From an uncultured Verrucomicrobiales bacterium (GTDB lineage Bacteria > Verrucomicrobiota > Verrucomicrobiia > Verrucomicrobiales > Akkermansiaceae): 40,447 bases of DNA. Below the pieces are notes generated by a model. It was not told the origin of the DNA. It was given only the letters and a program-made list of their open reading frames with translations, and did not search any database. Shown in pieces: positions 12,214-40,180 of this stretch (position 1 is its first letter; every line of letters begins with the position of its first letter). The DNA lies in NCBI GenBank assembly GCA_937934595.1, contig CALGZA010000002.1, forward strand, positions 1 to 40,447, in the 5' to 3' direction. The position numbers and the translations under genes were made by a program.

Positions 12214-13197
12214 TTAACGAAGCCCTACAATACCTCGCACTCGATCAAGCACTTTCGTTGACTCTGCCCGCGCTTTTTCTGCTCCATTAGCGATAACCTC
12301 ATGCACATAATCTAGATTATTCTCTAATTCCTCACGCTTAGCTCTTATAGCCGCAAATTTCTCCCAATACGCATCAAATAACTGCTGCTTAAAATAGCCA
12401 TAACCCTTACCTTCCTCACCACTCAGTCCATGCTCATCAATCATCGTCTGAACAGCAGATTCATCAGCAAATAATTGATACAAAGCAATCACTGTCGAAC
12501 CATCAGTAGGTTTCACATCCTCCACTTCAGCAGACGTAGTAACAATCTTCATAATGGTTTTTCGTAATGCTTTCATATTTCCAGCTAACGGAAGTGTATT
12601 TCCATAGCTCTTGCTCATTTTTCTTCCATCTAATCCTGGGACTACTGCTGTAGACTCCTTAATCTGTGCTTCAGGAATAACCAAAGTACCTTCTCCAAAT
12701 TTATCATTCACTTTACCAGCAAGATCACGCGTGACTTCAAGGTGCTGTTTTTGATCCTTACCCACAGGAACCAAGTTAGCATCATACAATAAAATATCCG
12801 CAGCCATGAGAGCTGGATAGGCGAATAAAGCATGATTAGCATCTAAACCATTTTCTACCTTATCCTTATATGAATGACAACGCTGTAGAAGTCCCATAGG
12901 ACAAACAGTAGATAATATCCAAGCCAGTTCGTTCACCTCAGGTATATCACTCTGACGAAAAATAGTTGCTTTTTCAGGATCTAAACCAGATGCCAAAAAA
13001 TCTATAGCAAGTTCACGTACGTTTTCACGCAGTGCTGAAGCATCTGTCATAGAAGTCATCGCATGATAATCCGCTATAAAATAGAAAGCTTCTCCTTGAT
13101 CCTGAAGCTTAACAGCAGGTTCCATCGCACCAAAATAGTTTCCTATATGAAGTTTTCCACTAGGCTGAAGTCCTGTAAGTATGCGCATAGTTGTCAT
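12214..13197 (-). CDS. trpS: Tryptophanyl-tRNA synthetase
   Basis: A class I aminoacyl-tRNA synthetase that charges tRNA-Trp. The N-terminus RILTGLQPSGKLHIGNYFGA carries the HIGH-type signature as HIGN at about residues 17-20. The KMSKS loop is intact as GRKMSKSYGNT at about residue 191. The 327-residue length is typical of bacterial TrpS. Start choice is between the ATG at 13197 and one three codons in, which would give the more common MRILTG start. It runs alone on the minus strand between the bamA terminator and the FAD-oxidase gene. The 43-bp gap upstream would allow co-transcription with that gene. Confidence 0.96.
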   Translation of the reverse strand: MTTMRILTGLQPSGKLHIGNYFGAMEPAVKLQDQGEAFYFIADYHAMTSMTDASALRENVRELAIDFLASGLDPEKATIFRQSDIPEVNELAWILSTVCPMGLLQRCHSYKDKVENGLDANHALFAYPALMAADILLYDANLVPVGKDQKQHLEVTRDLAGKVNDKFGEGTLVIPEAQIKESTAVVPGLDGRKMSKSYGNTLPLAGNMKALRKTIMKIVTTSAEVEDVKPTDGSTVIALYQLFADESAVQTMIDEHGLSGEEGKGYGYFKQQLFDAYWEKFAAIRAKREELENNLDYVHEVIANGAEKARAESTKVLDRVRGIVGLR

Positions 13198-15555: not shown

Positions 15556-16110
15556 CTATCGAGGAGCTACTGTAATGGTATACTTGCCAAAATCAGATTT
15601 AGCTCCAGAAGAACGTAGGATATAATTTAATATTTCACCAGCTGGGACATTCTTGAGCTTCATATTTATAGAGACGTTTTTAAATTTTTGCTTTTTGTCG
15701 TGAATTACAAAATTAGGAATCACTTTTCCTTTTGACTGAGTTTCTACACTCTTGGCAAGATCCCCTAAAGCATCTTTTAAACTAACTTCACTGACATCAA
15801 TGAGAGGTATTATAATACTCTCAAAAATGCGCTTACGCCTTTTTAGAACACTATAGTTACCTCTTAGCTTCATCTGCTTCGCTAAGGCTATAGAATGAGC
15901 GTGTCTGCCATTCAGAGCAAGTGCTGAGTTAATTGCCTCTCTGGCTACTTTCATGTTTCCATTTTCAAAGGCTTTCACTGCTATACCATAAAAGGACTCT
16001 ACTTGCTTAGCACGTGCTGCCCTCTGTTTAATCGTATCTTGAGCAGAGAGACTTCCTGTAGCCAATAGAAGACATGTAGTCCATTTTATTAAAGTAGTAA
16101 TAGATTTCAT
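15556..16110 (-). CDS. Secreted protein with secretin/TonB short N-terminal (STN)-like domain
   Basis: A 184-residue exported protein. Residues 1-23 are a signal peptide (TTCLLLATGSLSAQ). Residues about 35-75 look like a TPR-type helical pair (YGIAVKAFENGNMKVAREAINSAL is the phrase). Residues about 100-184 resemble the STN fold seen at the front of secretins and TonB receptors: IPLIDVSEVSLKDALGDL, then VSINMKLKNVPAGEILNYIL and a closing GKYTITVAPR. It stops there, without a secretin or receptor part. Stand-alone STN proteins of this kind are common in Verrucomicrobia, but their job is unknown to me. It lies just left of the proposed replication origin. Confidence 0.7.
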   Translation of the reverse strand: MKSITTLIKWTTCLLLATGSLSAQDTIKQRAARAKQVESFYGIAVKAFENGNMKVAREAINSALALNGRHAHSIALAKQMKLRGNYSVLKRRKRIFESIIIPLIDVSEVSLKDALGDLAKSVETQSKGKVIPNFVIHDKKQKFKNVSINMKLKNVPAGEILNYILRSSGAKSDFGKYTITVAPR

Positions 16111-16359
16111 AAGATGATTAGAATTTATATTGATTTGATTTTTAGTTTTGCTTCTGTAAGAATTCTACTTTCTTACAGGTGGTATATTACTTTAAATAAG
16201 GTTATTTACTCACATGGTTACTAAAAATCTTTTTAAATAAATAAAACATTTCTTCTTCTTAATGGTGTTAATAACCAAGGAATATGAGCGTTCCTCATTA
16301 TGGTTACAGTTGTTCCACCGTGTGTATAGTCTGTTAAGAAACTATGAAGCGCATGAAGT

Positions 16360-16396
16360 ATAACAGTGATATGAATAGAAAGATATTCACTGTTAT
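16360..16396. repeat. Inverted repeat inside the putative origin
   Basis: ATAACAGTGA at 16360-16369 is perfectly inverted as TCACTGTTAT at 16387-16396, with a 17-nt AT-rich centre that extends the pairing by a further ATAT with one bulge. It lies directly left of the two exact DnaA boxes. It could be a binding site for an origin regulator or an extruding hairpin. Confidence 0.7.
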
Positions 16397-16410
16397 TCTC
16401 AATCCACAGC

Positions 16411-16419
16411 TTATTCACA
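16411..16419 (+). promoter_or_regulatory. DnaA box 1 (TTATTCACA)
   Basis: Exact match to the TTATNCACA consensus. It is the left member of a same-direction pair, 32 bp (three helical turns) from the second box. Confidence 0.7.
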
Positions 16420-16442
16420 ATGAAACTATGACTTATGCCTGC

Positions 16443-16451
16443 TTATTCACA
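16443..16451 (+). promoter_or_regulatory. DnaA box 2 (TTATTCACA)
   Basis: Exact match to the TTATNCACA consensus, in the same orientation as box 1 and in helical phase with it. Confidence 0.7.
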
Positions 16452-16581
16452 CCTATTATGGCGCACAAACGGAGATAGAAATCATCAAAATAGAGTGATA
16501 ATTTCTTCGTCTAGTGTGAATGATATTTGCTAATTTTGCCTCTTTACTTCTAGGCTACATTTTAGAGGGTGGTGTGGCGGT

Positions 16582-17943
16582 ATGAAAAGTGAATTGACCA
16601 TATTTAACGAGCTTGTAGATGAGCTTCTGAAGTTAGAGAAATCTGAGCCGGTAGTGAAGCTTGGTGCTCCTGAGGGGATGAAGGATAAGTTTGACATTGC
16701 TGTGAGCGATGAGCCTATGTCTGAAGATGATTTCAAGGCGGTCTTGGGTAACGTTGTGCTAAATACTCCTCGCACAGCTAGCCGTTCATTTTTTAATCAA
16801 TTGTTTGGTGGGAGAAATCCGGTAGCCACGCTTGGTGAGTTACTCTCAGTAATGTTGAATATAAGCATGTATACCTACAAAGTAGGTGGTCCACATGTAG
16901 GAATAGAGACTGAGCTAGTGCAGCAGATCTGTAGTAGGATAGGATTCCCTATAGAAGAGAGTGGGGGAACATTTGCTCCAGGCGGGTCAATGAGTAACTT
17001 TATGTCAGTCATCATAGCGCGCGATGCTTATGATCCAGAGATAAAGAATATGGGCGTATCTAAACGACTTATTATTTATACGTCTAAAGAATCTCATTAT
17101 TCGATAGCTAAGAACGCTACGTTTGCCGGTATAGGTAGAGAAAATGTTCGCTATCTTCCTGTAAATGAAAAGGGGAAGATGAAGACTGAGGACTTAGAAC
17201 TACTGATAGATCAAGATAAGAAGATGGGTTTACATCCATTTCTTATCAATGCTACAGCTGCTACTACTGTATTGGGCTCTTATGATGATATTGATACGTT
17301 AGGTGATATAGCGAAGCGATATGGCCTCTGGTTACATGTAGATGGAGCATACGGAGGTTGTGTGATATTCAGTGAAAAGCATAGGCATTTAGTGAAAGGT
17401 ATAGAGAAGTGTGATTCATTTACGATTAATCCACACAAGATGCTGAGCACTCCGTTATCTTGTTCTATCTTTGTCACGAAACATAAACAACAGCTTGTAG
17501 AATCGTTTTCTCAAGATGCTAGTTATCTTTACCAGGGAGATGATGATTATAACCTGGGTAAAACATCTCTTCAGTGTGGTAGAAGGAATGATGCATTTAA
17601 GTTATGGGCACTTTGGAAGTCAGTAGGAACAAAGGGTTTAGAAAAGATGGTAAATCAGTTATTTTATTTAGCAGATGTAGCCCGTGATTATGTGAGCAAT
17701 CACCCAGATTATAAGCTTTATAGCTTTGAAGAATCCACTGCTGTTTGTTTTAATTATAAAGATATTCCTTCTAAAGATGTGTGTAGTGCTCTAGCGGATC
17801 ATGGGGCGTTGATGGTGGGGCATGGTTCTTTTGGTGATCAGAATTTCGTGAGGTTAGTTACAGTTAATTCTAGTCTAACAGAAAATGATATTCTTAATTT
17901 TTTCAAACATTTTGAGAAATTTACTGAAGAATATTATTTCTAA
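16582..17943 (+). CDS. PLP-dependent group II decarboxylase (glutamate/aromatic/sulfinoalanine type)
   Basis: A 453-residue fold-type I pyridoxal-phosphate enzyme of the glutamate/aromatic-amino-acid/cysteine-sulfinate decarboxylase group. PLP-site features are present: GGTFAPGGSMSNFMS (phosphate side), the Asp of LHVDGAYGG near residue 254, and the Schiff-base Lys in SFTINPHKM near residue 287. The upstream GGLLxNxxP-like front of some relatives is reduced, but the length is normal and the frame is open throughout. It removes the alpha-carboxyl of an amino acid; the substrate cannot be read from sequence. It is the first gene right of the putative origin and is followed after 16 bp by a sugar transferase and then an archaeal-type GAPDH homologue. 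That suggests a small pathway making a decorated or amine-bearing envelope component. Confidence 0.88.
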   Translation: MKSELTIFNELVDELLKLEKSEPVVKLGAPEGMKDKFDIAVSDEPMSEDDFKAVLGNVVLNTPRTASRSFFNQLFGGRNPVATLGELLSVMLNISMYTYKVGGPHVGIETELVQQICSRIGFPIEESGGTFAPGGSMSNFMSVIIARDAYDPEIKNMGVSKRLIIYTSKESHYSIAKNATFAGIGRENVRYLPVNEKGKMKTEDLELLIDQDKKMGLHPFLINATAATTVLGSYDDIDTLGDIAKRYGLWLHVDGAYGGCVIFSEKHRHLVKGIEKCDSFTINPHKMLSTPLSCSIFVTKHKQQLVESFSQDASYLYQGDDDYNLGKTSLQCGRRNDAFKLWALWKSVGTKGLEKMVNQLFYLADVARDYVSNHPDYKLYSFEESTAVCFNYKDIPSKDVCSALADHGALMVGHGSFGDQNFVRLVTVNSSLTENDILNFFKHFEKFTEEYYF

Positions 17944-19535: not shown

Positions 19536-20531
19536 TTAAGCTTTTGCTGGTGTAATGCTGAGGACTTTTTCTACAATTTTAGCAACGGTAGGAAGCTGTT
19601 CATTTTCTATAGCGGGTGCGTAGATTGCTGGTGCATCTAGTGTGGTGACTCGCCTGATTGGAGCATCTAAGTAATCAAAAGCATGTTCCTGGATGAGTGT
19701 GATGATCTGGGCAGATACACCACAGAACGGTTTACTTTCATCCACCATGACGGCTCGGTTTGTTTTTTTCACCGAGTTGATGATAGCGTCTTGGTCTAGT
19801 GGACGAATGGATCTGAGGTCCACGATTTCTGCACTGATTCCATGCTGAGACTGGAGGATTTCTGCTGCATCGATTGCGTGTAGTGTGGATCTTCCGTGTG
19901 AAACTAGTGTCACGTCTGTGCCTTCACGTTTAATATCTGCTACTCCTAGAGGAATGGTGAAGTCTCCTTCTGCTGGATCAGGGACTGGGCCAGACATTCC
20001 GTAGAGCAGTGTGTTTTCCATAACATAAACTGGGTCATTATCACGGATTGCAGACTTCATAAGTCCTTTAGCATCAGCAGGTGTTGCTGGAGAAACTACT
20101 TTTAGGCCTGGGAATGCAGCGAAGAGACCTTCTGGAGTGTGTGAGTGCGTAGCGCCGACGTTTGTTCCGCCGTTAGCAGGACCACGGACTACGATAGGGC
20201 AGTTACATTTTCCGCCTGACATATAGCGGACGTTCGCTGCATTATTCACTAGCTGGTCAAAGGCAACTGAGTGGAACGACCAGAACATGAGTTCCATGAC
20301 GGGACGAATACCTAGCATAGAGGCTCCTATTCCCATACCGATAAATCCAGCTTCTGAGATAGGGGTGTCTACGATGCGTTTGTCACCCCATTTATCCCAG
20401 AGTCCTTCTGTGACTTTATAGGCTCCGTTATACTGGGCTACTTCTTCACCCATGATGACGACGTTTTCATCGCGTGTGAGTTCTTCATCGAATGCTTCAC
20501 GAATGGCGTGTCTGTATAGTAATTCTCTCAT
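19536..20531 (-). CDS. pdhB: Pyruvate dehydrogenase E1 component, beta subunit
   Basis: The beta half of the thiamine-diphosphate-dependent E1 enzyme, which decarboxylates pyruvate to feed acetyl-CoA synthesis. The start MRELLYRHAIREAFDEEL at 20531 is the family start. The longer open frame to 20663 overlaps the alpha gene and is rejected. Family phrases include VVIMGEEVAQYNGAYKVTEGL, DTPISEAGFIGMGIGA and VVRGPANGG. The 331-residue length is typical. It follows pdhA by 13 bp on the minus strand, so the two are co-transcribed. E2 and E3 genes are not beside it. Its end faces the GAPDH-like gene with only a weak GGATC/GATCC hairpin at 19520-19532 between them. Confidence 0.93.
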   Translation of the reverse strand: MRELLYRHAIREAFDEELTRDENVVIMGEEVAQYNGAYKVTEGLWDKWGDKRIVDTPISEAGFIGMGIGASMLGIRPVMELMFWSFHSVAFDQLVNNAANVRYMSGGKCNCPIVVRGPANGGTNVGATHSHTPEGLFAAFPGLKVVSPATPADAKGLMKSAIRDNDPVYVMENTLLYGMSGPVPDPAEGDFTIPLGVADIKREGTDVTLVSHGRSTLHAIDAAEILQSQHGISAEIVDLRSIRPLDQDAIINSVKKTNRAVMVDESKPFCGVSAQIITLIQEHAFDYLDAPIRRVTTLDAPAIYAPAIENEQLPTVAKIVEKVLSITPAKA

Positions 20532-21797: not shown

Positions 21798-21813
21798 TGT
21801 TCCACGTGGAACA
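21798..21813. promoter_or_regulatory. parS site 1 (ParB-binding)
   Basis: TGTTCCACGTGGAACA is a perfect 16-bp palindrome and a known form of the chromosomal parS site bound by ParB for origin segregation. It lies 49 bp before the mnmG start and about 5.5 kb from the putative origin. Confidence 0.88.
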
Positions 21814-21861
21814 TGTCTTCTTGATGTGGTTTGGCTATTGACCAAAGGTTCCTTGATCTCT

Positions 21862-23739
21862 ATGAATCTGCGTATGTTTAAGTATCCAAAGAAGTATGAT
21901 GTGCTTGTAATAGGAGCTGGTCATGCCGGTATAGAAGCGGCGTTAGCGGCAGCTAGAATGGGGAGTTCTGTGGCTATGCTTACACAGAACTTGGATACGA
22001 TAGGAGCGATGTCCTGTAACCCTGCGATAGGCGGCTTGGCTAAGGGGCATATGGTGAGGGAGATAGATGCTCTGGGAGGGGCTATGGCATTGAATACTGA
22101 TGCTACAGCTATCCAGTGGCGTATGTTGAACCAGAAGAAGGGGCCTTCTGTGAGGGCGCCTAGGGCTCAGTGTGATAAGAAGGCGTATCAATTTAGGATG
22201 AAACACCTTGTAGAGATGACTCCTAATTTAGATCTCCATCAGGGTAATGTGGCTGAGATATTAGTGGAGAATGACAAGGTGTATGGTATTAGGACTAGTT
22301 TACAGATGGAGATATCAGCGACTACGGTGATACTGAGTGCAGGGACATTCATGCGAGGGCTCATGCATGTGGGGCTAAAGAATGAAAAAGGGGGAAGGAT
22401 GGGTGATGCTATTTCGACGGTGAGTGATAGCTTGAAGGATTTGGGTTTTGAGGTGGAGAGGTTTAAGACGGGAACTCCTTGTAGGATTAATGGGAGATCT
22501 ATTAATTTCTCTAAGTGTGAGAAACAGGCTGGTGATACGCCTATACCCAAGTTTTCTTACATGCATGATTCCATTACTAGAGGGCCTGATGACATTTTCA
22601 CTTTGAATCCTTGGGGAGATAAAATGTTCCACGTGGAACAAGTGCCGTGTTGGATTACATATACGAACCCGCAGACGCATGATGTGATACGGGATAATCT
22701 GCATCAGTCACCGATGTATTCTGGGAAGATTGAGGGTGTGGGGCCTAGGTATTGTCCTAGTATAGAGGATAAGGTGGTAAAGTTTGCGGAGAAGGATAGG
22801 CATCAGGTTTTTTTAGAGCCAGAGGGAAGGCATACTTTAGAGTATTATATTAATGGTGTTTCCACATCACTGCCTTACGATGTCCAGCTAGATTTTATTC
22901 GTTCTATTGAGGGGTTAGAGAATGCGGAGATTATCCGTCCTGGTTATGCGGTGGAGTATGATTATTGTCCACCCACTCAGCTTTTGCCTACATTAGAGAC
23001 GAAGCAGGTGGAGAATTTATTTTTTGCTGGGCAGATTAATGGGACTTCTGGGTATGAAGAGGCTGGGGCACAGGGGTTGATGGCTGGTATTAATGCGGTG
23101 CTTAAAGCGCGGGAGGCGGGGCCTTTTATACTGGGACGTGATGAAGCTTATATTGGTGTGATGATTGATGATTTGGTAACGAAGGGATGTACTGAGCCTT
23201 ATAGGATGTTCACGAGCAGGGCGGAGTATCGGTTATTATTACGTCAGGATAATGCGGATTTACGACTTACATCTAGGGCTGCGGATCTTGGACAGGGGAT
23301 TATTACTGAGGAGAGGAGGTTGAGGACTGAGGAGAAGGTAGCTACTTTAGAGGAGGCGAGGGAGTTTATCCGTACGACTACCCATGAGCGCATGCGACTT
23401 GATGCTTGGTTCCGAAGGCCAGATAACCAGTGGGAGATTTTACCTGATGCTTTTAAGGAGAGGTATGACAGTGAGCTATGGGCAATACTGGAGACAGATT
23501 TTAAGTATGCGGGTCACTTGGAGAGGCAGTTAAGGCAGGTAGAGCGTGTGTCTAAAATGGATAAAAGGAAGATACCTGATTCGATTGATTATAGTGAGGT
23601 TAAGGGGATAAAGAATGAAGCTAGGCAGTTGTTGATTATGATAAGGCCTGTGACGATTGGTCAGGCGGGGAGGATTTCTGGGATAACACCAGCTGATCTG
23701 GCAATTCTTTCGATCTGGATTGAGAAGATGGAGAGGTAG
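21862..23739 (+). CDS. mnmG: tRNA uridine-5-carboxymethylaminomethyl modification enzyme MnmG (GidA)
   Basis: MnmG, with MnmE, installs the cmnm5 group on wobble uridine 34 of several tRNAs, using FAD and NADH. The FAD-binding site is at the front (YDVLVIGAGHAGIEAALAA), followed by the family signatures SCNPAIGGLAKGHMVREIDALGG and GTFMRGLMHVG. Later come GQINGTSGYEEAGAQGLMAGINA and the helical C-terminal domain with SRAEYRLLLRQDNADLRL. The ATG at 21862 gives 625 residues, the family norm; the open frame upstream to 21826 crosses the area next to parS and lacks conservation. A second parS lies inside the coding part. Linkage of mnmG with the origin and parAB is common in bacteria, but rsmG and parAB are not seen here. 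Confidence 0.96.
   Translation: MNLRMFKYPKKYDVLVIGAGHAGIEAALAAARMGSSVAMLTQNLDTIGAMSCNPAIGGLAKGHMVREIDALGGAMALNTDATAIQWRMLNQKKGPSVRAPRAQCDKKAYQFRMKHLVEMTPNLDLHQGNVAEILVENDKVYGIRTSLQMEISATTVILSAGTFMRGLMHVGLKNEKGGRMGDAISTVSDSLKDLGFEVERFKTGTPCRINGRSINFSKCEKQAGDTPIPKFSYMHDSITRGPDDIFTLNPWGDKMFHVEQVPCWITYTNPQTHDVIRDNLHQSPMYSGKIEGVGPRYCPSIEDKVVKFAEKDRHQVFLEPEGRHTLEYYINGVSTSLPYDVQLDFIRSIEGLENAEIIRPGYAVEYDYCPPTQLLPTLETKQVENLFFAGQINGTSGYEEAGAQGLMAGINAVLKAREAGPFILGRDEAYIGVMIDDLVTKGCTEPYRMFTSRAEYRLLLRQDNADLRLTSRAADLGQGIITEERRLRTEEKVATLEEAREFIRTTTHERMRLDAWFRRPDNQWEILPDAFKERYDSELWAILETDFKYAGHLERQLRQVERVSKMDKRKIPDSIDYSEVKGIKNEARQLLIMIRPVTIGQAGRISGITPADLAILSIWIEKMER
22625..22640. promoter_or_regulatory. parS site 2, inside mnmG
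   Basis: A second exact TGTTCCACGTGGAACA palindrome, read in mnmG as part of KMFHVEQV. It lies 827 bp from the first site. Intragenic parS sites close to the origin are common in bacteria. Confidence 0.88.
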
Positions 23740-24652: not shown

Positions 24653-24964
24653 GGATTAGTTGTTATAATTCTTACTAGAGTTGTAAAGGAGTTAATAGTT
24701 TAGATGGTGGTATATGAATTACATTAAGTAACACAAACTACTTATAATGAGTAGTTTATGTTTTATTTCTGCGTATTTATACGGAGAAGTTTTGTGGGTA
24801 TGTGCATTAGGTTTTATGAATGAAGGGGTATTTATTATTTTATTTTTAATGCGATGTTGGCTCAGAGTTTGTCGTGCCTATTTTGCAAAGTGATCAATTT
24901 TTTGTGTGAGCGGGTTTTGGTTGCATTGTGAGTCGATGGGTGGATAGTGTGTTTAGTTTATTTT
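24653..24964. other. Divergent intergenic region with a hairpin
   Basis: This 312-bp gap between two divergent membrane-protein genes contains one clear structure, AAACTACT at 24735-24742 inverted as AGTAGTTT at 24750-24757 with a 7-nt TATAATG centre. It lies about 80 bp upstream of the minus-strand gene, where an operator would fit. I see no coding potential elsewhere in the gap. Confidence 0.45.
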
Positions 24965-25783
24965 ATGCATCTTGTTCTTACAGTTATAGGGGTAATCATC
25001 ATTGGTATGGCGTTACGGTCATGCCGGTTGAAGGTGTTGAGGAAGCTGGGGATGTTTGTGTATTTGTTGGCTTCTGGGCTGGCGATTTATTTTTTGACGG
25101 ATAGTGTGTTTGTTGGCTTGTTGGGTATGTGTTTGTGGTTTTTGTTGCCTTGGTTAGAGTTGCTGACCCGGGTTCGTAATTTGCGTTTGCCACTGGATAA
25201 TAAATTACAGCACCGGTTTCCTCCGAATGAAGATCATTTTCCGAATGCGGATGCTACGATAGCTGCGCTTGAGGAGGCTGGGTTTGAGCATGTGAAGAAT
25301 TGTGGCTGGGACTGGGCTGGTGCTTCGCAGAGCTTTCAGTTTTTCTGGCATCCTGAGGAGCGTTGTCTGGCTGCGGTGTGTTTCTGCCAGCAGGCTAAGA
25401 TTACGTTTTCTTTTGTTACGTTTAGTTCGCGGGATCTGAATGGTTTTATGTGGAGGACGAGTAATTATCCGTTTGCGCCTACGTTGAAGGAGTCACCAAA
25501 TGTGTGGCATAATCATATAGGTTGTGGTGTGGAGACGGTGGATGCGATGTTAGCGAGTCATCATTATTTTATTTCACTGCATGGAGCTTGTCATGATGAT
25601 CTGTGTGTTCCGTGTCCGGATAGTGTGGAGGAGGAGGTGGAGCAGGATATGCGGAGGCAGATTGATTTTAACTTGGAGAGCGGTATCATTAAGCTGACTG
25701 GGGATGGGAATTTTCAGTATACGTTTAGGGGGTTGTTTTTTCTTTGGAAACAGTTTGTTAAGGATATGATACGGTTGTGTTAG
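24965..25783 (+). CDS. Membrane-anchored protein of unknown function
   Basis: Not recognised. The ATG at 24965 gives 272 residues; a GTG at 24947 would add six. Two or three hydrophobic helices occupy residues 1-70 (LVLTVIGVIIIGMAL, FVYLLASGLAIYFLT, FVGLLGMCLWFLLPWLELL). The rest is soluble, with many Cys, His and Trp residues: NCGWDWAGASQSFQFFWHPEERC, WHNHIGCGVETVDAM, HHYFISLHGACHDDLCVPCP. These could form disulfides or bind metal, but no known site is recognised. The soluble part resembles conserved hypothetical proteins of Planctomycetes and Verrucomicrobia, from memory of the style only. It is followed after 59 bp by the Mrp gene. Confidence 0.72.
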   Translation: MHLVLTVIGVIIIGMALRSCRLKVLRKLGMFVYLLASGLAIYFLTDSVFVGLLGMCLWFLLPWLELLTRVRNLRLPLDNKLQHRFPPNEDHFPNADATIAALEEAGFEHVKNCGWDWAGASQSFQFFWHPEERCLAAVCFCQQAKITFSFVTFSSRDLNGFMWRTSNYPFAPTLKESPNVWHNHIGCGVETVDAMLASHHYFISLHGACHDDLCVPCPDSVEEEVEQDMRRQIDFNLESGIIKLTGDGNFQYTFRGLFFLWKQFVKDMIRLC

Positions 25784-25842
25784 ATGGTGGGATGATTTAG
25801 TGGGTGGTTAGGTGGTTAGGAAATTTTTTTAGATTATAGATA

Positions 25843-26901
25843 ATGAGTATGATAACGGAAGAGATGATAAGAGAGGCGCTTGCGCAGGTGAAGTATCCTG
25901 GTTTTTCTAGAGATATTGTGGCGTTTGGTTTGGTGAAGGAGGTGAAGCTGGATGGGGTGGATGTGGAGGTAACGGTGGCTATTCAGACACGTGATGAGAA
26001 GGTGCCTGAGCAGATTTTTAAGGATGCGCAGGATGTTTTGAATGCGATAGAGGGTATAGGGCTGACGCGTGTTACGATAGATGTGAAGGATCCAGATGCT
26101 GCGGTTTCTGGTGATGGTGGGAGCTCTGGGGGTGGGAAGTCTGCTATTCCTGGTGTGAAGCGTGTGATAGCGGTGGGTTCAGGTAAGGGGGGTGTGGGTA
26201 AGTCAACGGTTTCATCGAATCTTGCGGTGGCTTTGGCTAAGGCTGGGTATAGGGTGGGTTTGTGTGATTGTGATTTATATGGGCCTTCTACTGGGCAGAT
26301 GTTCGGGACTGATCAGCAGCCGATGGCGAATGAGAAGGATGAGATTATTCCGATTGAGGCGCATGGGGTGAAGTTGATGTCGATGAGTTTTCTGGTGACT
26401 GAGGGGTCGCCTGTGATAGTGCGTGGGCCTTTGGCGACGCGGTATACGCAGCAGTTTCTTAGGCAGGTGGAGTGGGGTGAGCTGGATTATTTGATTTTGG
26501 ATTTGCCACCTGGGACGGGTGATATTCAGTTGACGATTGTGCAGACTGTGGCGCTGGATGGTGCGGTGATAGTGACGACTCCGCAGGAGGTGGCATTAAT
26601 TGATGCGCGTAAGGCGGTGACGATGTTTGCTAAGGTGAATGTGGATATTTTGGGTGTGGTGGAGAATATGTCTTGGTTTGAGTGTGATGCGGGTAAGCGA
26701 TATCCTATTTTTGGTGATGGTGGTGGTGTGAGGGAGGCTGAGAGGTTGAAGGTGCCTTTGTTAGGGCAGGTTCCTATTGATGTGCATACGCGTGAGTGTG
26801 CTGATGCTGGGATGCCTGTGGCTCTTTTAGATGCTGGAGAGAGTGTGACGAGTGCTGCGTTTGGTGAGGTAGCGGAGAGGTTGGTGGGGATTTTGAAATG
26901 A
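25843..26901 (+). CDS. apbC: Mrp/ApbC family iron-sulfur cluster carrier ATPase
   Basis: A 352-residue P-loop ATPase that binds and transfers Fe-S clusters to apoproteins in the cytoplasm. The N-terminal MIP18/DUF59 domain spans about residues 5-90 (EEMIREALAQVKYPGFSRDIV). A Gly/Ser linker at about 88-98 leads to the deviant Walker A GSGKGGVGKSTVSSNLA at about residues 113-129, then LDLPPGTGDIQL. The usual C-terminal CxxC cluster-binding motif is altered: the region reads WFECDAGKRYPIFGDGGG, with only one Cys. The stop overlaps the start of the DUF58 gene by 4 bp (ATGA), so the two are translationally coupled. Confidence 0.93.
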   Translation: MSMITEEMIREALAQVKYPGFSRDIVAFGLVKEVKLDGVDVEVTVAIQTRDEKVPEQIFKDAQDVLNAIEGIGLTRVTIDVKDPDAAVSGDGGSSGGGKSAIPGVKRVIAVGSGKGGVGKSTVSSNLAVALAKAGYRVGLCDCDLYGPSTGQMFGTDQQPMANEKDEIIPIEAHGVKLMSMSFLVTEGSPVIVRGPLATRYTQQFLRQVEWGELDYLILDLPPGTGDIQLTIVQTVALDGAVIVTTPQEVALIDARKAVTMFAKVNVDILGVVENMSWFECDAGKRYPIFGDGGGVREAERLKVPLLGQVPIDVHTRECADAGMPVALLDAGESVTSAAFGEVAERLVGILK

Positions 26902-27776
26902 GTGAGATGGATAGGGATGAGTTGATGGCTGAGGTGCGTGATCTTGAGATTAAGGCGAAGCGGTTGTCTAGGGAGTCTTTTTCTGGGGAGTACCATACTT
27001 CGTTTAAGGGGCAGGGGTTGGATTTTGAGGATTATAGGGAGTATCAGCATGGGGATGAGACGCGGTTTATAGACTGGAAGGTGACGGCGAGGATGCGTGA
27101 GCCGCATATTAGGACGTTCCGTGAGGAGCGAGAGCTGAGTGTTATGCTGGCGGTGGATGTTTCTGGTTCTGGTAGGTATGCGAGTGGGAGGTTGAGTAAG
27201 AAGCAGAAGGCTGCTAGGATAGCGGCGGTGTTGGCTTTTTGTGCGAAGCATAATGGGGATAAGGTGGGTTTGCTTTTGTTTACGGATAGGACGGAGCTTT
27301 ATTTGCCGCCTGCTAAGGGGACGAAGCATGTGCTGAGGATGATCCGTGAGATTCTTGGTTTTGTGCCTGAGGGTAAGGGGACGAGTATTGCGCATGCTTG
27401 TGATTTTATGATTAAGACGTTGAAGAGGAAGTCGTTGGTGTTTATGATTTCTGATTTTATGGATCATGATTTTTCTAGGAAGCTTGGTGCGATGAGTAGG
27501 CAGCATGAGACGATAGCGATGCGGGTTTATGATCCGGTGGAGGAGGCGTTACCGATGGTGGGGAAGGTTCATTTAACGGATCCTGAGACGGGTTACCAGA
27601 CGATGGTGAATACGAATAATGCGAATGTGCGGATGGGTTATTCTAAGCTGAATAGGCGAAGGTTAGAGGGGCTGCAGAGGGTGTTTAGTAAGTATAGGAT
27701 AGCGAGTATGGAGACGTCGACGGAGGAGGATTTTTTACCGGCTTTGCATTTGTTGTTTAAGCGGATTCATAAGTAG
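26898..27776 (+). CDS. DUF58 domain protein (vWA-like)
   Basis: A 292-residue DUF58 protein. The signature lies at about residues 36-62: FKGQGLDFEDYREYQHGDE then RFIDWKVTARMREPHIRTF. A vWA-like domain follows, with a MIDAS-type DVSGSGR near residue 91. DUF58 proteins usually stand beside a MoxR AAA ATPase and help in metallo-protein maturation or stress responses. Here the upstream ATPase is instead Mrp/ApbC, joined by a 4-bp overlap. No membrane helices are seen, so it is the short cytoplasmic type. The role with Mrp is inference from coupling alone. Confidence 0.9.
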   Translation: MSEMDRDELMAEVRDLEIKAKRLSRESFSGEYHTSFKGQGLDFEDYREYQHGDETRFIDWKVTARMREPHIRTFREERELSVMLAVDVSGSGRYASGRLSKKQKAARIAAVLAFCAKHNGDKVGLLLFTDRTELYLPPAKGTKHVLRMIREILGFVPEGKGTSIAHACDFMIKTLKRKSLVFMISDFMDHDFSRKLGAMSRQHETIAMRVYDPVEEALPMVGKVHLTDPETGYQTMVNTNNANVRMGYSKLNRRRLEGLQRVFSKYRIASMETSTEEDFLPALHLLFKRIHK

Positions 27777-27850
27777 TTCTCTGTTGATTCATTGTCATTG
27801 ACTTTGTGTCTGGAGTGCTTTCTTTTAGGTGCGGTTCATCCTGATAGTGT

Positions 27851-29251
27851 ATGCTCTTTAATAGTTATCAATTCTGGTTTTTTTATTTGTTAGTCATCGT
27901 GGTTTATCGGTTTCTGTCTCATCGGGATCAGAATTGGTTGTTACTTGGTGCGAGTTATTATTTTTATGCGTGTTGGGATTGGAAATTTTTGCCGTTGATT
28001 TTGGTTACGACGTTGGTGAATTTTTATGTGGCACGTGATTTATCTGTTATGGGTCTGAGGGGTAGGAGGGTGTTGGTGACTTTTGCTGTGGTGGTTTCAT
28101 TGGGGATATTGGCTTATTTTAAGTATGCGAATTTCTTTATTTCTAGTACGCAGGAGTTTTTGTTAGCGATTGGTTTTCAGGCTGATTTGAGTACCTTGAG
28201 TATTATTTTGCCGGTGGGTATTTCTTTTTATACGTTTCAGACATTGTCTTATACGATTGATGTGTTGCGTGGTAGGGTGGAGGCGACTCGTTCTTTGAGA
28301 GACTTTGCATTGTATGTGGCTTATTTTCCTCAGTTGGTGGCGGGACCGATTGAGAGGGCGTCTCAGTTGCTGCCGCAGATTGTGGAGAGGAGGCGTGTGG
28401 TTGCGTCTGATTTTACGGTTGGGTTGTCTTTGGTGATGACGGGTTTGTTTTTGAAGGTGGTGATAGCGGATAATGTTTCTTTTATTGCGAATGGGGCTTT
28501 TATGGCTCCTGTGGGAGCGATTACGGGTACGGATGCTTTGGTTGGTTTGTATGCGTTTGCTTTTCAGATTTATGGAGATTTTGCGGGTTATTCGTTTATG
28601 GCTTGTGGTGTTTCACGTTGGTTAGGGATTCATTTGATGGTGAATTTTGCGCGTCCATATTTGGCTAAGGGACCTTCGGATTTCTGGCAGCGGTGGCATA
28701 TTTCTTTGTCGTCTTGGTTACGTGATTATTTGTATATTCCTTTGGGTGGGAATCGTGGTGGGAAGGTGAAGACGTATCGGAATTTGATGTTGACGATGTT
28801 GCTGGGTGGGTTGTGGCATGGTGCGGCTTGGACGTTTGTGGCGTGGGGTTTTTTGCATGGTTTGATTTTGTGTGTTTACCGTGCGCTGGGGAATCCGTTT
28901 TCTGGTGGTATGGGTAGGGTGGGGAGTTTCTTGGCTGGGTTGTTTTTCTTTCATCTTGTGTGTTTGACGTGGTTGTTTTTCCGTGCGGATGATTTTGAGC
29001 AGGCTTGGTATATGTTGTGTCTTATTTTGACTGAGCAGTGTGGGAGCGCGTTTTCTGTGTATGGGTTTTGGATGCTGGTGTTTTTGTGTTTACCTTTGGT
29101 GGTGGCTGAGGTTTGGAGTGATAGGGATGAGGGGCGGTGGTTGCATTGTTTGCCGTGGAGGATGCGGGCTGGGGTTTATTGTTATATTATGTTGATGGTG
29201 ATTGTTTTTTCTCCGGCGATCTTGAGTGATTTTATTTATTTCCAATTTTAA
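27851..29251 (+). CDS. MBOAT family O-acyltransferase (AlgI/DltB-like)
   Basis: A 466-residue polytopic membrane protein of the MBOAT family, close to AlgI. It moves an acyl group across the membrane to an extracytoplasmic glycan. Signatures are LLGASYYFYACWDWKFLPLI, LPVGISFYTFQTLSYTIDV, YFPQLVAGPIERASQLLPQI and SDFWQRWHISLSSWLRDYLY. The catalytic His lies in LLGGLWHGAAWTFVAWG near residue 322. About ten to eleven helices are visible. It is followed after 13 bp by an SGNH-type partner (29265), matching the AlgI-AlgJ/AlgX arrangement. The acceptor polymer is not known; other envelope genes downstream suggest a surface glycan or lipopolysaccharide. Confidence 0.93.
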   Translation: MLFNSYQFWFFYLLVIVVYRFLSHRDQNWLLLGASYYFYACWDWKFLPLILVTTLVNFYVARDLSVMGLRGRRVLVTFAVVVSLGILAYFKYANFFISSTQEFLLAIGFQADLSTLSIILPVGISFYTFQTLSYTIDVLRGRVEATRSLRDFALYVAYFPQLVAGPIERASQLLPQIVERRRVVASDFTVGLSLVMTGLFLKVVIADNVSFIANGAFMAPVGAITGTDALVGLYAFAFQIYGDFAGYSFMACGVSRWLGIHLMVNFARPYLAKGPSDFWQRWHISLSSWLRDYLYIPLGGNRGGKVKTYRNLMLTMLLGGLWHGAAWTFVAWGFLHGLILCVYRALGNPFSGGMGRVGSFLAGLFFFHLVCLTWLFFRADDFEQAWYMLCLILTEQCGSAFSVYGFWMLVFLCLPLVVAEVWSDRDEGRWLHCLPWRMRAGVYCYIMLMVIVFSPAILSDFIYFQF

Positions 29252-29264
29252 TGATTTAGTAGAG

Positions 29265-30212
29265 ATGTCATCTGATTCGTATATAACGTCGTTTAGGCAG
29301 GAGCTGAAGGTAGTGGCTGTGGTGGTTGTGTTTTTGTTTTTGTTAGAGTTTCTTGCGCGTGTTATTGCTCCGCATTTGGATTATGATAGGATGCATATTA
29401 GTAAGTTTGGTGAGATAGTGGCTGATATGCCGGCTGAGGATAGGCGAGAGAGTGGGCATTTGTGTGTTTTGGGGAATTCTTTGTTGATGCATGGTTTTGA
29501 TGAGGAGTTGTTTGGTGAGAGGTTGCCGAGTGTGGCGGTGACTAAGTTGACTCCTGTGGGGACGGCGGTGCATGACTGGGAGATGTTATTTAGGCGTTAT
29601 TTGGAGGGTGAGGGTTCGTTACCTAAGCATTTGGTGATAGGGTTTGTGGCGCATCATATTAATGATTCTGAGCCTGTTAAGCTGCGTAGGATGGCGAGGC
29701 ATTTTGCGGATGTGGGGGATTTACCTTATTTATGGGATCATGAGGCGTTTGATTTTCATTTGAAAACTCAGTCTGTGTTGTCGCATTATTCTGCGCTTAT
29801 TGGGGACCAGCCTGAGCATAGGTTACGTTCTTTGGAGTGTTTGATTCCTGATTATAGGAGGGGTTTGAATAGGAATAAGGATTTTACGAGTCGTGTGGTG
29901 GTTGAGGAGTCTGGTGGTGCGAGAGTGGAGCCTGGGTTTAGACGGATGTCTCGTTTTTTGGCGAGGTGTGAGGGGCATGGGATAGAGGTTTATTTGGTTC
30001 CGATGCCTCAGCCGGAGGTATGGGATATGCGGCCTGAGGTGGGTTTGGCGGCTGCTGAGTATGGTGCTGTGGTGCTGGATGCGCGTCGTATTGAGGGTAT
30101 GGGGGCGTCTGATTTTTCTGATGGTTATCATCTGGGTGAGACGGGTGTGGTGAAGTTTACGAATTGGTTAGCGGATGAATTTAAACGATTAGGAGTATAT
30201 GGTGATGAGTAA
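29265..30212 (+). CDS. AlgJ/AlgX-like SGNH acyltransferase partner of MBOAT
   Basis: A 315-residue protein with one N-terminal membrane helix (about 14-32, [19 protein letters not shown]) and a periplasmic SGNH-like domain. The block I serine lies in [11 protein letters not shown] near residue 71, and the Asp-x-x-His pair in [11 protein letters not shown] near residue 286. The mid-part [13 protein letters not shown] may give the oxyanion or Asn block. Such proteins take the acyl group delivered by the MBOAT partner and attach it to the polysaccharide. The start at 29265 is chosen because the open frame before it overlaps the MBOAT gene. The gene overlaps the trmA start by 8 bp. Confidence 0.78.
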
Positions 30213-31326
30213 GGAGTATGAGGTTCAGTTGGGTGAGAAGGTGGAGCGGATGGGTGAGGTGTTTGGGGAGTTTTCTGATTTTTGTGGTGGTGGTGTTTTG
30301 CCTGGGCTTGAGGTGTTTGCGAGTGATCCGGTGCATTATAGGATGCGGGCGGAGTTTAGGGTGTGGCATGATGGGGATGATTTGTATTATATCATGTTTG
30401 ATCAGGAGACTCGTGAGAAGTATAGGGTGGATGATTTTCCTGCGGCGAGTGCTGAGATTAATGCGTTGATGCCTGTGTTGATAGAGAGGATTAGGGGAAA
30501 TGTTGTGTTACGGAGGAAGATATTTCAGGTTGATTTTTTGTCTACTTTGAGTGGGGAGATGCTGGTGAGTTTGTTGTATCATAGGCCGTTGGATGATGAG
30601 TGGAGGGAGGCGCTGGGGGTGATGAGGGAGGATTTATCTGGGTGTGGGTTTGAGGTGGATTTTATAGGTAGGGCACGGAAGCAGAAGTATGTGGTGGGTA
30701 GGGATTATGTGGTGGAGAGGTTGATGGTGTATGGTGATGAGTATGTTTATAAGCAGGTTGAGAATAGTTTTACTCAGCCGAATGGGCGTGTGGCTGAGAG
30801 GATGCTGGAGTGGGCGGTGGATTGTACGCGTGGTAGTGAGGGGGATTTGTTAGAGTTGTATTGTGGGAATGGGAATTTTTCGTTGGCTTTGGCTCAAAAT
30901 TTTAGGCGGGTGGTGGCGACTGAGTTGGCGAAGCCTTCTGTGGAGGCTGCGCAGTGGAATATAGCTGCGAATGCTGAGAGGAAGGGGTGTGAGGGTGTGA
31001 AGGTGGTGCGGCTGAGTGCTGAGGATTTCACGTTGGCTATGGGTGGTGATAGGGAGTTTAAGCGGCTGAAGCAGCAGGGTGTGGAGCTGGGGGAGTATGA
31101 TTTTAGGACGGTGTTTGTGGATCCTCCACGGGCGGGGATGGATTTGGATTCTGTGCGGATGGTGCAGGGGTATGAGAGGATTGTTTATATTTCGTGTAAT
31201 CCGGTGACGTTGTGTGAGAATTTAAGGGTGCTTTGTGAGACGCATGAGTTGGTGAGGTTGGCGCTGTTTGATCAGTTTCCTTTTACGCATCATATTGAGT
31301 GTGGGGTGATGTTGGTGCGGAGGTAG
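30205..31326 (+). CDS. trmA: tRNA (uracil-54-C5)-methyltransferase TrmA
   Basis: A 373-residue SAM-dependent methyltransferase that makes ribothymidine at U54 of tRNA. The N-terminal part [26 protein letters not shown] and the motif [13 protein letters not shown] fit TrmA rather than RlmC/RlmD. The SAM site is [17 protein letters not shown], motif IV is [11 protein letters not shown], and the nucleophilic Cys lies in [14 protein letters not shown] near residue 331. The TRAM domain is absent, as is normal for TrmA. Two ATGs are possible; the one at 30205 sits 9 nt after an AGGAG at 30191-30195, better spaced than 30199. It overlaps the SGNH gene by 8 bp. TrmA is best known from Proteobacteria, so its presence here is worth noting. 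Confidence 0.92.
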
Positions 31327-31376
31327 TTTGTGCTGGTTGTGTGGGGATATAGTGTTTAGTTATGTGTGTATAGATT

Positions 31377-32150
31377 ATGAGACCTGATAAGAGAGAGATA
31401 CATGAGTTAAGGGAGATAACGTTTACGCCTAATGTGGCGCCGCATGCTACGGGTTCTGTGCTGGTATCTTTTGGTGATACGCGGGTGATTTGTGCTTGTA
31501 CGGTGGAGGATAATATTCCTGGGTGGATGAAGTATCAGAAGATTAAGGGTGGGTGGCTGACGGCTGAGTATTCTATGTTACCTTATTCGACGCTGGATAG
31601 GAAGCGGCGTGATATTACGCAGGGTAAGTTGGACGGGAGGTCATCTGAGATTCAGAGGTTGATTGGTAGGTCATTGCGTGCGGTGGTGGATTTGAAGATG
31701 TTAGGTCATAGGACGTTGTGGATTGATTGTGATGTGTTGCAGGCTGATGGTGGGACGCGGACGGCTTCTATTACTGGTGGTGCTGTGGCGGTTGCGATTG
31801 CGTTGAATAAGTTAGTGGCAGAGGGGAAGATTAAGCAGTCTCCGATGAAGAAGTTGATTTCTGCTGTGAGTGCGGGTGTGTATAAGGAGACGCCTGTGTT
31901 GGATTTGAATTATCCTGAGGATAAGGATGCTACGGTGGATTTTAATGTGGTGATGACTGAGGATTTGGAGTTTGTGGAGATTCAGGGTGCTGGTGAGGAG
32001 GCTACGTTTAGCCGTGAGGAGATGGATGCGATGTTGGATTTGTCTGAGGCTGGTATCCGTGAGATTGTTGAGCTGCAGAAGGCGGCTATTGCGGATGCGG
32101 AGAGTGCGAAGCCGGCGGATCTTCAGGGCTTAGCTGATGCGTTTAAGTAG
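31377..32150 (+). CDS. rph: Ribonuclease PH
   Basis: A 257-residue phosphorolytic 3'-5' exoribonuclease that trims tRNA 3' ends. The protein follows the family from start to end: MRPDKREIHELREITFTPN, GSVLVSFGDTRVICACTVED, AEYSMLPYSTLDRKRRDI, the phosphate-binding GRSSEIQRLIGRSLRAV, CDVLQADGGTRTASITGG and VDFNVVMTEDLEFVEIQGAGE. It is about 15-20 residues longer than the usual 240, with an Ala-rich C-terminal end. The gap to trmA is 50 bp, and the two RNA-maturation genes probably share a transcript. Confidence 0.96.
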   Translation: MRPDKREIHELREITFTPNVAPHATGSVLVSFGDTRVICACTVEDNIPGWMKYQKIKGGWLTAEYSMLPYSTLDRKRRDITQGKLDGRSSEIQRLIGRSLRAVVDLKMLGHRTLWIDCDVLQADGGTRTASITGGAVAVAIALNKLVAEGKIKQSPMKKLISAVSAGVYKETPVLDLNYPEDKDATVDFNVVMTEDLEFVEIQGAGEEATFSREEMDAMLDLSEAGIREIVELQKAAIADAESAKPADLQGLADAFK

Positions 32151-32210
32151 GGGGCTTAGGGTGTTGTTTTTTTGTGAGTGTGTGTGGGCGCGTTTCTTAC
32201 TGGATGCTAG

Positions 32211-32774
32211 GTGATGATGAATAGGAGTGAAGATGGTGGTGATGGGTTAGAGGGTGGTGCTGGTGGTGCGCGGTATAGGTCATCTGTTAGGGTGCCTGTG
32301 TTTGGGGAGGTTCCTTTGAATGTTTCTGAGATTGTTGCGGATTTGAGGTGTAAGGATGATCCGCCGTTGTGGGCGCAGTTTTTTAAGTATGTTTTGTTTG
32401 GGTTGTTTTCGACGTTTTTGTTTGGGCTTGTGTGGGTGATGGCGCGGGTGTTTTTTTCTGATTATATATCGGTTGATTTACCTGTTGATGTTAGGAAGGC
32501 TCATATGACGGTGGTGATGTTGGTTGCTTTTACGGTGGGTGCTACGGTGGCTTATATTACGAATCGGTTGTATGTTTTTTCTGCGAGTGAGAGGCATTGG
32601 ACGTTGGAGTTTTTGATTTTTTTGGTGGTTTCTAGTTTGAGTTTTTATGCGGGGAATGTGGCTAAAGATTGGTTTATGGATATGGGGGTGTGTATTGATG
32701 TGGCGGCGTTGTCATTTGCGGTTTGTTCTGCTGTGGTGAATTTTGTGGCGCGTAAGTATCTTGTGTTTGGTTAG
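32211..32774 (+). CDS. GtrA-like family membrane protein
   Basis: A 187-residue protein with an N-terminal polar part of about 55 residues and a GtrA-like domain from about residue 56 (WAQFFKYVLFGLFSTFLFGLVWVMAR). Four hydrophobic helices are seen, with the family phrase AYITNRLYVFSASERHW near 115 and the ending FVARKYLVFG. GtrA proteins are thought to help move undecaprenyl-phosphate-linked sugars across the inner membrane for cell-surface polysaccharide. No partner GtrB-type glycosyltransferase is adjacent. The following gene is a membrane AlkP-type transferase, so an envelope-related role is likely. Confidence 0.85.
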   Translation: MMMNRSEDGGDGLEGGAGGARYRSSVRVPVFGEVPLNVSEIVADLRCKDDPPLWAQFFKYVLFGLFSTFLFGLVWVMARVFFSDYISVDLPVDVRKAHMTVVMLVAFTVGATVAYITNRLYVFSASERHWTLEFLIFLVVSSLSFYAGNVAKDWFMDMGVCIDVAALSFAVCSAVVNFVARKYLVFG

Positions 32775-32853
32775 TTGTTTTTTGTTGGTTAGTATAAAGT
32801 TGACAATGAGGTGCTTAGCCAATACGGCAGTTGGACTGAATTGATTGGTTGTG

Positions 32854-39136: not shown

Positions 39137-39724
39137 TGGCGACTGATCATTTTTTACAGGATTTATGTCCGTGAGTGTGGACTGGAGTCATTGATGATGA
39201 AGATGTGACTTGAGGGTCAATATGCGTGCTAGAAAAGTCTATTTGAGCTATTCCAGTTCACTCTACGATGCATTGAAACCTATGGATGAGGCGACTTCGA
39301 GGGTTTAAAGAGCGTTTGGTTTATATTCAGATTCCATGCTATATTTCCTAAGTTCTTTATGTATCTTCACTTGTTCCTCATAAACCTATGCTACGTTATA
39401 GTTAGGTATTTCAAAAATAGCCTAGGCGTCTCTTTTTCATTACGAGTTTGTGCATAGATTTCCTTTTTTGATGGCATATGCATGTTTTAGCTGTTGTTAG
39501 CGGTTATTTTCTGTAATTTTTTTACAAACGTGTAACTTGTTGGTTTACAGTGTAATGTTGTTTTTTTGGAGTTTTTGGAGCGTGAATGATTTAAATTTTA
39601 CTTAATTTACTTGCAAAAAAAGCGGGTTTGTGAAAAACAGCGCCCGACCAAAATTATTATGTGTTCGTTCAGTTTACTTAACCTTAAAAATGCTTTGCGC
39701 GCCAAGCGCCAAAAAACAGCATCG
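39137..39724. other. Gene-free region with probable regulatory sites
   Basis: This 588-bp stretch holds no supported gene. A weak frame opens from a TTG at 39611 and an ATG at 39659 into the next gene, so its true start is uncertain. The main content is a group of alternating TGTAA and TTACA boxes at 39512-39555. The rest is AT-rich with no clear terminator after the preceding gene. Confidence 0.5.
39512..39555. promoter_or_regulatory. Cluster of alternating TGTAA/TTACA boxes
   Basis: Five pentamers occur in 44 bp: TGTAA 39512, TTACA 39522, TGTAA 39531, TTACA 39545 and TGTAA 39551. Neighbouring boxes form inverted repeats with centres of 5, 4, 9 and 1 nt. They lie 170-210 bp before the preferred start of the next gene. 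The pattern suggests overlapping operator sites for a dimeric regulator. Confidence 0.45.
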
Positions 39725-40180
39725 ATGACTCAGCAAAGCTTGCTGTCGTTTCGTTGTGTCTCTGTTGTTTTGGTTTTGGCTTGTAGTGCTTTACAAGGGG
39801 TAAATGCCCAAGACGCAAATGCAAGAGATCTAGCAACAAACGCTGTTGATACGGCTAAGAAGCAAATTCCTACTAACAAGGATGCACTTGAAAATCAGGC
39901 GAAGTTTCTTAAGGGTAATGCTATTGCAGCGCCGCTTCCAGCTGGTTCACCAAAGCTTGAAGCGATGCGTAAGCGCTCCAAAGCATTGCTTGAAAAGCAC
40001 ACTGCTTTCATGAAGGAGGTAAGCGCAGGAAAAGTTGATCCCTCTGCTTATCTGCGTAAACTTCGTCCTCAACATGAAAAAGAGGTTCAGAATGTCAAAA
40101 ATCTAATTGGTCAGCTCTCACGTGAAGAAGATGTTGTTGGCCGGGAAAAAATAGCACAAGCACTATTTATTGCACTGTAA
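39725..40180 (+). CDS. Secreted protein of unknown function, closed by an in-frame stop
   Basis: Not recognised. From the ATG at 39725 the protein has a good signal peptide (residues 1-29, SVVLVLACSALQGVNAQ). A helical, Lys/Ala-rich mature part of about 120 residues follows (ENQAKFLKGNAIAAPLP, MRKRSKALLEKHTAFMKEV). An ATG at 39659 would give a longer, basic N-region, as seen in some large surface proteins. The frame closes at TAA 40178-40180, but the same frame stays open and protein-like to the window end. The likely reading is a larger secreted protein interrupted by a nonsense change. Composition differs from the G/T-rich block upstream, with more A and C. Confidence 0.6.
   Translation: MTQQSLLSFRCVSVVLVLACSALQGVNAQDANARDLATNAVDTAKKQIPTNKDALENQAKFLKGNAIAAPLPAGSPKLEAMRKRSKALLEKHTAFMKEVSAGKVDPSAYLRKLRPQHEKEVQNVKNLIGQLSREEDVVGREKIAQALFIAL

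Follow-up and report, generated by a model that had tools for sequence, protein, structure and literature searches.

The whole of contig C2 (40,447 bases; hereafter the window) from a 3.15-Mb draft genome of an uncultured bacterium of the Verrucomicrobiales, assembled as 123 contigs, contains an intergenic gap at positions 16111 to 16581 that, judged from its sequence, is very probably the chromosomal replication origin (oriC) of a marine Rubritalea-type verrucomicrobium, located beside mnmG (gidA) and not beside dnaA. Strand composition reverses at this gap, DnaA boxes cluster in it, and it carries a conserved module that is found nearly always in a single copy, near mnmG and parS-like sites and at a distance from dnaA. 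The mnmG-side layout is common to relatives of this bacterium, among them probably the gut bacterium Akkermansia. Rubritalea is grouped with Akkermansia in GTDB. The NCBI taxonomy assigns it to the Rubritaleaceae, within the Verrucomicrobiales. The genus g3 of our comparison set, to which the closed chromosome G038 belongs, is probably Akkermansia.

GC skew of the top strand passes from -0.16 left of the gap to +0.35 right of it. In 1-kb bins it is negative in 15 of the 16 bins left of 16 kb (the exception, at 11-12 kb, has +0.007) and positive in all bins to the right; the cumulative minima in the window fall at 16,024 for G-C and at 15,625 for T-A, and the likelihood change point lies at 16,561, with a log-likelihood gain of 550. 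The predicted oriC is thus located at the skew minimum, as is looked for in an origin, a minimum that for this genome refers to the window, the draft being in 123 contigs; relatives are mixed in this respect. A preliminary description of this DNA had proposed an origin away from dnaA, in part from three sampled lines whose base counts we found to be exact (20 C/10 G at 12241-12300, 12 C/18 G at 19801-19860 and 7 C/25 G at 26161-26220), and had held that the composition reverses whatever the direction of the genes, which four-fold degenerate sites on both strands and intergenic DNA bear out. In the left arm, seven of the eight genes measured have a four-fold skew of -0.30 to -0.73, the lone exception being the open reading frame (ORF) at 15556-16110, at the edge of that arm (+0.43); in the right arm every one of the 21 genes measured has a positive value, between +0.07 and +1.00. 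Both strands are represented in each arm, with values of -0.64 and -0.73 for the plus-strand genes of BamA and DUF6288 on the left and of +0.85 and +0.60 for the minus-strand genes of E1-alpha and E1-beta on the right. Because four-fold sites reverse on both strands, the reversal is not a gene-strand effect; intergenic DNA alone has a skew of -0.09 on the left and +0.26 on the right.

The gap and the elements recognized in it are listed here, one-mismatch DnaA boxes having been scored against TTATNCACA.

16111 to 16581, no strand: intergenic gap with the predicted oriC and the skew reversal, without an ORF of at least 100 amino acids (aa)
16180 to 16248, no strand: AT-rich tract, candidate DNA unwinding element, a T-run and then A-rich positions, partly kept across genera
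16197 to 16455, plus strand: conserved core of the predicted oriC, 259 bp, present in all five of the Rubritalea-group genomes in alignments A1 and A2, and the subject of model R1
16206 to 16214, plus strand: DnaA-box-like TTACTCACA with one mismatch, at the core's left edge and kept in the rows of the genus
16251 to 16260, plus strand: trinucleotide tract TCTTCTTCTT, candidate deviant DnaA-trios on the T-rich strand, seen in the alignment rows
16266 to 16274, minus strand: R1-like DnaA box in inverted orientation, of which the window has a degenerate form (TTATTAACA) and 14 of 30 aligned rows have TTATTCACA
16290 to 16294, plus strand: GTTCC motif, its GT invariant and its next T and last C each at 90% or more in the 30 rows
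16311 to 16324, plus strand: conserved TGTTCCACCGTGTG, overlapping the box at 16321, with TGTTCCACCGTGT invariant in 5 of 5 genomes and GTTCCA at 90% or more per column in the 30 rows
16321 to 16329, minus strand: DnaA-box-like CTATACACA, inverted, one mismatch
16393 to 16401, plus strand: DnaA-box-like TTATTCTCA, one mismatch
16411 to 16419, plus strand: exact DnaA box TTATTCACA, from the box scan and the genus alignment
16443 to 16451, plus strand: exact DnaA box TTATTCACA, 32 bp after the previous one, from the same two sources
16515 to 16523, minus strand: DnaA-box-like TCATTCACA, one mismatch, beyond the conserved core

Seven DnaA-box-like 9-mers fall within 320 bp, a density beyond chance and one expected of an oriC: the maximum among 200 block-Markov simulations was five, reached once. 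The box total over the whole window (54, with 46.5 expected) is near chance, so that it is the clustering of the boxes, not their number, that is unusual. The DNA beside the boxes is AT-rich (81% AT over 16180-16262), as is also typical of origins. The two exact boxes had been described as being in helical phase, and their 32-bp spacing does correspond to about three turns; the AT-rich tracts were likewise correctly noted, while the single-mismatch boxes number five (16206, 16266, 16321, 16393 and 16515) and not three. The inverted repeat described as large is weak, the best compact one having 13-nt arms of 92% identity set 17 nt apart (16357-16399), and we rejected it as part of the origin because the core is poorly conserved there. 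The conservation of GTTCC (16290-16294) and of TGTTCCACCGTGT (within 16311-16324) is about equal to that of the DnaA boxes.

With the 471-bp gap as the query, BLAST matched four of the six other genomes searched from the same genus (E 1e-27 to 4e-12); in three of the four the match starts at the DnaA-box-like 9-mer at 16206, and the aligned core is flanked at both ends by such 9-mers. A sequence-only model of the core, R1 (cut-off E 0.01, its five training genomes being counted among the matches), matched 141 of the 195 genomes of the family, in 13 of 16 genera, with one match in 136 of these genomes and two in five, which is the conserved and single state expected of an oriC. A second model, R2, covers the left half of the core and was built from the 30 best rows. 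Of 141 genomes sampled across the order it matched 75, ten of which belong to g3 and have weak E-values (1e-5 to 0.01); many of these order-level matches are near the cut-off, so that part of them will be due to chance. At a stricter cut-off (E 0.001), R2 matched 12 of 194 genomes across the phylum, and weak g3 matches such as that of G038 (0.00135) drop out. The 30 rows share an order of elements, namely a T-/A-rich stretch, TC(T/A) repeats, a short spacer, the inverted DnaA box, GTTCC, GTTCCA and rightward direct boxes. The same order is seen in G038 at 973,056-973,205, where the tract is followed by a degenerate box and, slightly further along, a consensus box. G199, a single-contig genome from another family, has two weak module matches 0.5 kb apart (C1:497144 and 497652), ~8 kb from mnmG, and its dnaA is at position 739.

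The constant neighbour of the module is mnmG, which in the window is accompanied by two parS-like sites.

21798 to 21813, no strand: parS-like palindrome TGTTCCACGTGGAACA, 28 bp before mnmG
21826 to 23739, plus strand: mnmG (gidA), Pfam GIDA, E 5e-165
22625 to 22640, no strand: second, identical parS-like palindrome, inside mnmG

Module and mnmG are no more than 11 kb apart in all 11 genomes compared (that of the window, G009, G066, G019, G036, G048, G082, G098, G130, G061 and G143), and in G054 and G016 the core sits between the E1-alpha gene and mnmG. A wider sample of 12 genomes was taken from the R2 matches, eleven of them from other families in the order and the twelfth being G118; here the two are on one contig and within 10.3 kb of each other in 8 of 12. 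The exceptions are G228 and G210, in which they are on separate short contigs, and two genomes with weak module matches, G271 (separate large contigs) and G277 (247 kb apart). Both palindromes differ by two mismatches from the standard parS, TGTTTCACGTGAAACA, and would place putative parS sites near the predicted oriC, as is common for origins. The same 16 bases occur inside mnmG or within ~130 bp of it in eight of the ten origin regions read (not in G050 and G016); other samples, amounting to 1.36 Mb in four genomes, contained no exact palindrome and a single site with two mismatches to the standard.

Adjacency to dnaA, a common but not universal trait of oriC, is not seen. In the window's own genome the module is on C2 and dnaA on C63, a contig with no skew reversal, all 25 of its 2-kb bins being negative (-0.15 to -0.43). 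The distance between module and dnaA is 1.8 Mb in G066, 2.0 in G019, 0.65 in G036, ~2.6 in G048, ~1.0 in G082, 0.48 in G098, 1.05 in G130 and 0.97 in G038, where dnaA is at position 1,129; the values for G048 and G082 take the chromosomes as circles. A second DnaA C-terminal (box-binding) domain was found above the Pfam cut-off in a 119-aa open frame of the window's genome (G000:C8:4101-4304), and a similar one of 121 aa, also above it, in G130; extra matches in G036 and G143 are weaker and fall below the cut-off.

In several relatives an origin-type reversal coincides with the module. On the 1.18-Mb contig of G009, with the 8 kb adjoining the module masked, skew is -0.13 at the left end, then comes close to zero, and is +0.06 to +0.19 in the twelve samples to the right of the module. 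In G038 the sign switches between the 950- and 970-kb samples in a single clean change, and each arm keeps one sign up to 2.24-2.38 Mb. The sign also changes at the module in G066 and G036, and within ~2 kb of the module matches in G054 and G016. After correction for transcription the reversal is clear in G066 and G038. For five further closed chromosomes (G019, G048, G082, G098 and G130) we applied a strict raw test, which asks for the signs -,-,+,+ in four 20-kb GC-skew samples around a site, and also measured corrected four-fold TA skew, which at the module has the expected reversal in G019, G048 and G082 and a weak one in G130.

Several of our results weigh against an origin at the gap. 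No R1 match was found in 54 of the 195 family genomes; among the 20 misses listed, 12 belong to g3, two to g5 and two to the genus of the window (genomes 83% and 58% complete). The R1-like box of the window is itself degenerate. None of the five closed chromosomes passed the strict raw test at the module, the sign in G019 being reversed, one of the five (G098) passed it at dnaA, and G098 has no reversal of corrected four-fold TA skew at the module. Three raw samples of G066 (at 1.40, 1.74 and 2.50 Mb) are off-sign, one of them still so after the transcription correction, the corrected GC signal of G036 is weak, and in G054 and G016 a few bins to the right of the module are slightly negative. 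There is little skew anywhere in the stretches read of G041 and G050, and in G058 the sign change at the module lasts for just the next 4 kb. Such patchy skew, together with the result at dnaA in G098, would be accommodated if the reversal in the window were the breakpoint of an inversion or other rearrangement, the boxes a DnaA-titration or regulatory site, and the true origin at dnaA or elsewhere. DnaA-binding clusters outside oriC do occur in other bacteria. We nonetheless consider a breakpoint improbable, given that the window genome's own dnaA contig lacks a reversal, that the reversal coincides with the module in all six genomes named above (G009, G066, G038, G036, G054 and G016), that it is a single clean change in the samples of G038 and, but for the three off-sign samples, in those of G066, and that parS-like sites are close by.

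The genes flanking the gap bear on another explanation, in which the core would serve one of them, either as a conserved cis-regulatory element or as the 5' region of an RNA.

15556 to 16110, minus strand: left flanking ORF, with a homologue next to the module in all five Rubritalea-group genomes compared
16582 to 17943, plus strand: PLP-dependent decarboxylase on the right flank, Pfam Pyridoxal_deC, E 1.5e-77

The constant company of the left ORF is what such an element would predict. In G054 and G016, however, no homologue of that ORF was found near the core in the stretches searched (E 1e-8); gene neighbours of the module vary between genera while the module stays, which speaks against a gene-specific regulator; an Rfam search of the window gave one tRNA and no further match; and a tie to a single gene leaves the skew, box and parS evidence unexplained. 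We therefore regard a cis-acting element as very unlikely. The left ORF evolves fast, with 33-40% identity within the genus, and yet always adjoins the module in those five genomes. It had been called STN-like, a similarity that is weak and below the Pfam cut-off (STN, E 0.0038); the assignment of its counterpart on the right as a PLP decarboxylase stands. To the idea that the contig derives from a plasmid or second replicon, so that the gap would not be the main chromosomal origin, we give almost no credence: the division of the assembly into 123 contigs would allow it, but this contig bears the core genes trpS, mnmG, tatC, bamA, rph and tRNA-Pro, and the module is on the sole contig of single-contig relatives such as G019, G036 and G048.

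For the predicted origin at the gap, we infer DnaA binding, melting, filament polarity, helicase loading and ParB binding along the following lines. DnaA would bind at 16393-16451, where the boxes are direct, and at the two inverted boxes (16266 and 16321); from the R1-like one at 16266 a DnaA filament would grow leftwards along the T-rich strand, reading TCT/TCA trinucleotides, and would melt the AT-rich tract, upon which helicases could be loaded for bidirectional replication. New origins would then be moved apart by ParB acting 5-6 kb away, at the parS-like sites near mnmG. The oriC of E. coli consists of an AT-rich unwinding region, an inverted R1-type box and more boxes that end in direct ones, and it is located apart from dnaA and beside mnmG (gidA). 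The module resembles it in its AT-rich part, in the inverted box followed by direct boxes, in its position away from dnaA and in having mnmG nearby, so that the neighbourhood, which had been thought unusual for an oriC, is the E. coli arrangement. It differs in having the TCT/TCA trinucleotide tract where E. coli has 13-mers, in the distance to mnmG (~5 kb in the window, adjacent in E. coli) and in its conserved GTTCC and TGTTCCACCGTGT motifs.

The pattern TCTTC[TA]TCTT is present in 24 of the 30 aligned rows, in 22 of which exactly 5 bp separate it from the next box, and the tract contains six of the 12 invariant columns of alignment A4; the rows lean towards the tract, however, being the best matches of a model that already contained it. 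A tract pattern composed after the tract had been seen was run over 79 sampled stretches (1.58 Mb) and found just three sites, which are the modules of G009, G066 and G036; the module of G038, although in the sample, was not matched, and the window, with TTATTAACA as its inverted box, does not fit the exact pattern either. In PMC8287927, DnaA-trios are described as trinucleotides with a middle adenine, located no more than 16 bp from a box and on the 5'-tail strand, and deviant trios without the middle adenine are suspected. The tract, at 5 bp from the box, matches trios in position and strand but not in letter, the window and most rows having TCT repeats in place of three or more (.A.) trinucleotides, and we have not classed it as a DnaA-trio; a reading with a middle A is possible in L094 and L101, which are TCA-type rows. 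We set aside two other candidates for trios, the stretch right of the box at 16443, which resembles two trios in the window and is not conserved, and the strand opposite the TCT tract, whose polarity away from the box is wrong for a 5'-tail as described in PMC8287927. The basal unwinding system of Bacillus subtilis, as set out in PMC8287927 and PMC6669920, is like the module in consisting of a DnaA box, a short spacer, at least three trinucleotides and then AT-rich DNA, with the 5' end of the repeat strand pointing away from the box, and unlike it in the middle adenine, which is mostly missing from the module's tract.

Origins separate from dnaA are already known, and it is the family-wide module and its odd tract that look new. 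The origin of Methylacidiphilum infernorum, from another lineage of Verrucomicrobia, was like ours found by GC skew, but is reported in PMC2474590 to be 250 nt upstream of dnaA. According to the excerpted text of PMC10197239, the origins of 12 gut strains, including Akkermansia muciniphila YL44, were set by skew, parS and coverage, ParABS homologues and mostly clustered parS sites were present in the 12 genomes, and dnaA was cautioned not always to be an origin marker; that excerpt states neither a position for A. muciniphila nor the sequence of an origin, and makes no connection with mnmG or with the family. According to SkewDB (PMC8941118), more than 80% of chromosomes, and hence not all of them, have dnaA no further than 5% from the skew shift. 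Among titles and beginnings of abstracts in the open-licence literature, which does not cover DoriC, we found no description of the module, of its tie to mnmG in the Verrucomicrobiales or of the tract; a DoriC prediction for Akkermansia may exist.

A broader proposal, to which we would give slightly less than an even chance, is that the ancestral origin of the Verrucomicrobiales is a self-contained and mobile module, linked to mnmG and parS and not to dnaA, that opens through a deviant DnaA-trio, the TCT/TCA repeat 5 bp from the inverted box, in which case origins that have been assumed from dnaA in Akkermansia and its relatives would be wrong. Were this so, the error in such positions would be large relative to the chromosome, in G038 0.97 Mb out of 2.65 Mb. 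The true position of the origin underlies growth-rate estimates from read depth, conventions for rotating genomes and analyses of replichores, and since the module is short and detectable by a sequence model, origins could be assigned in draft assemblies from this family. The TCT/TCA tract also offers a direct test of whether DnaA-trios may lack the middle adenine, a possibility that PMC8287927 leaves open.

Phage records compared with the window gave no match. The strand asymmetry of this genome is extreme: in plus-strand genes between 24.9 and 35.2 kb (window 24947-35202), four-fold sites are nearly all G or T (C 0-3%, A 2-8%), and on the dnaA contig (G000:C63) G makes up 2-5% of top-strand four-fold sites. 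On one contig of G041, of the same genus, four-fold asymmetry is far milder. Loss of uracil-DNA glycosylase or of MutS was rejected as a cause of the extreme skew, both domains having been found in all nine genomes checked, G000 included. Two ORFs right of 37 kb (window 37337-40180) have four-fold GC skews of +0.12 and +0.07, while neighbouring genes have +0.5 to +0.7, and these two may be recent arrivals.
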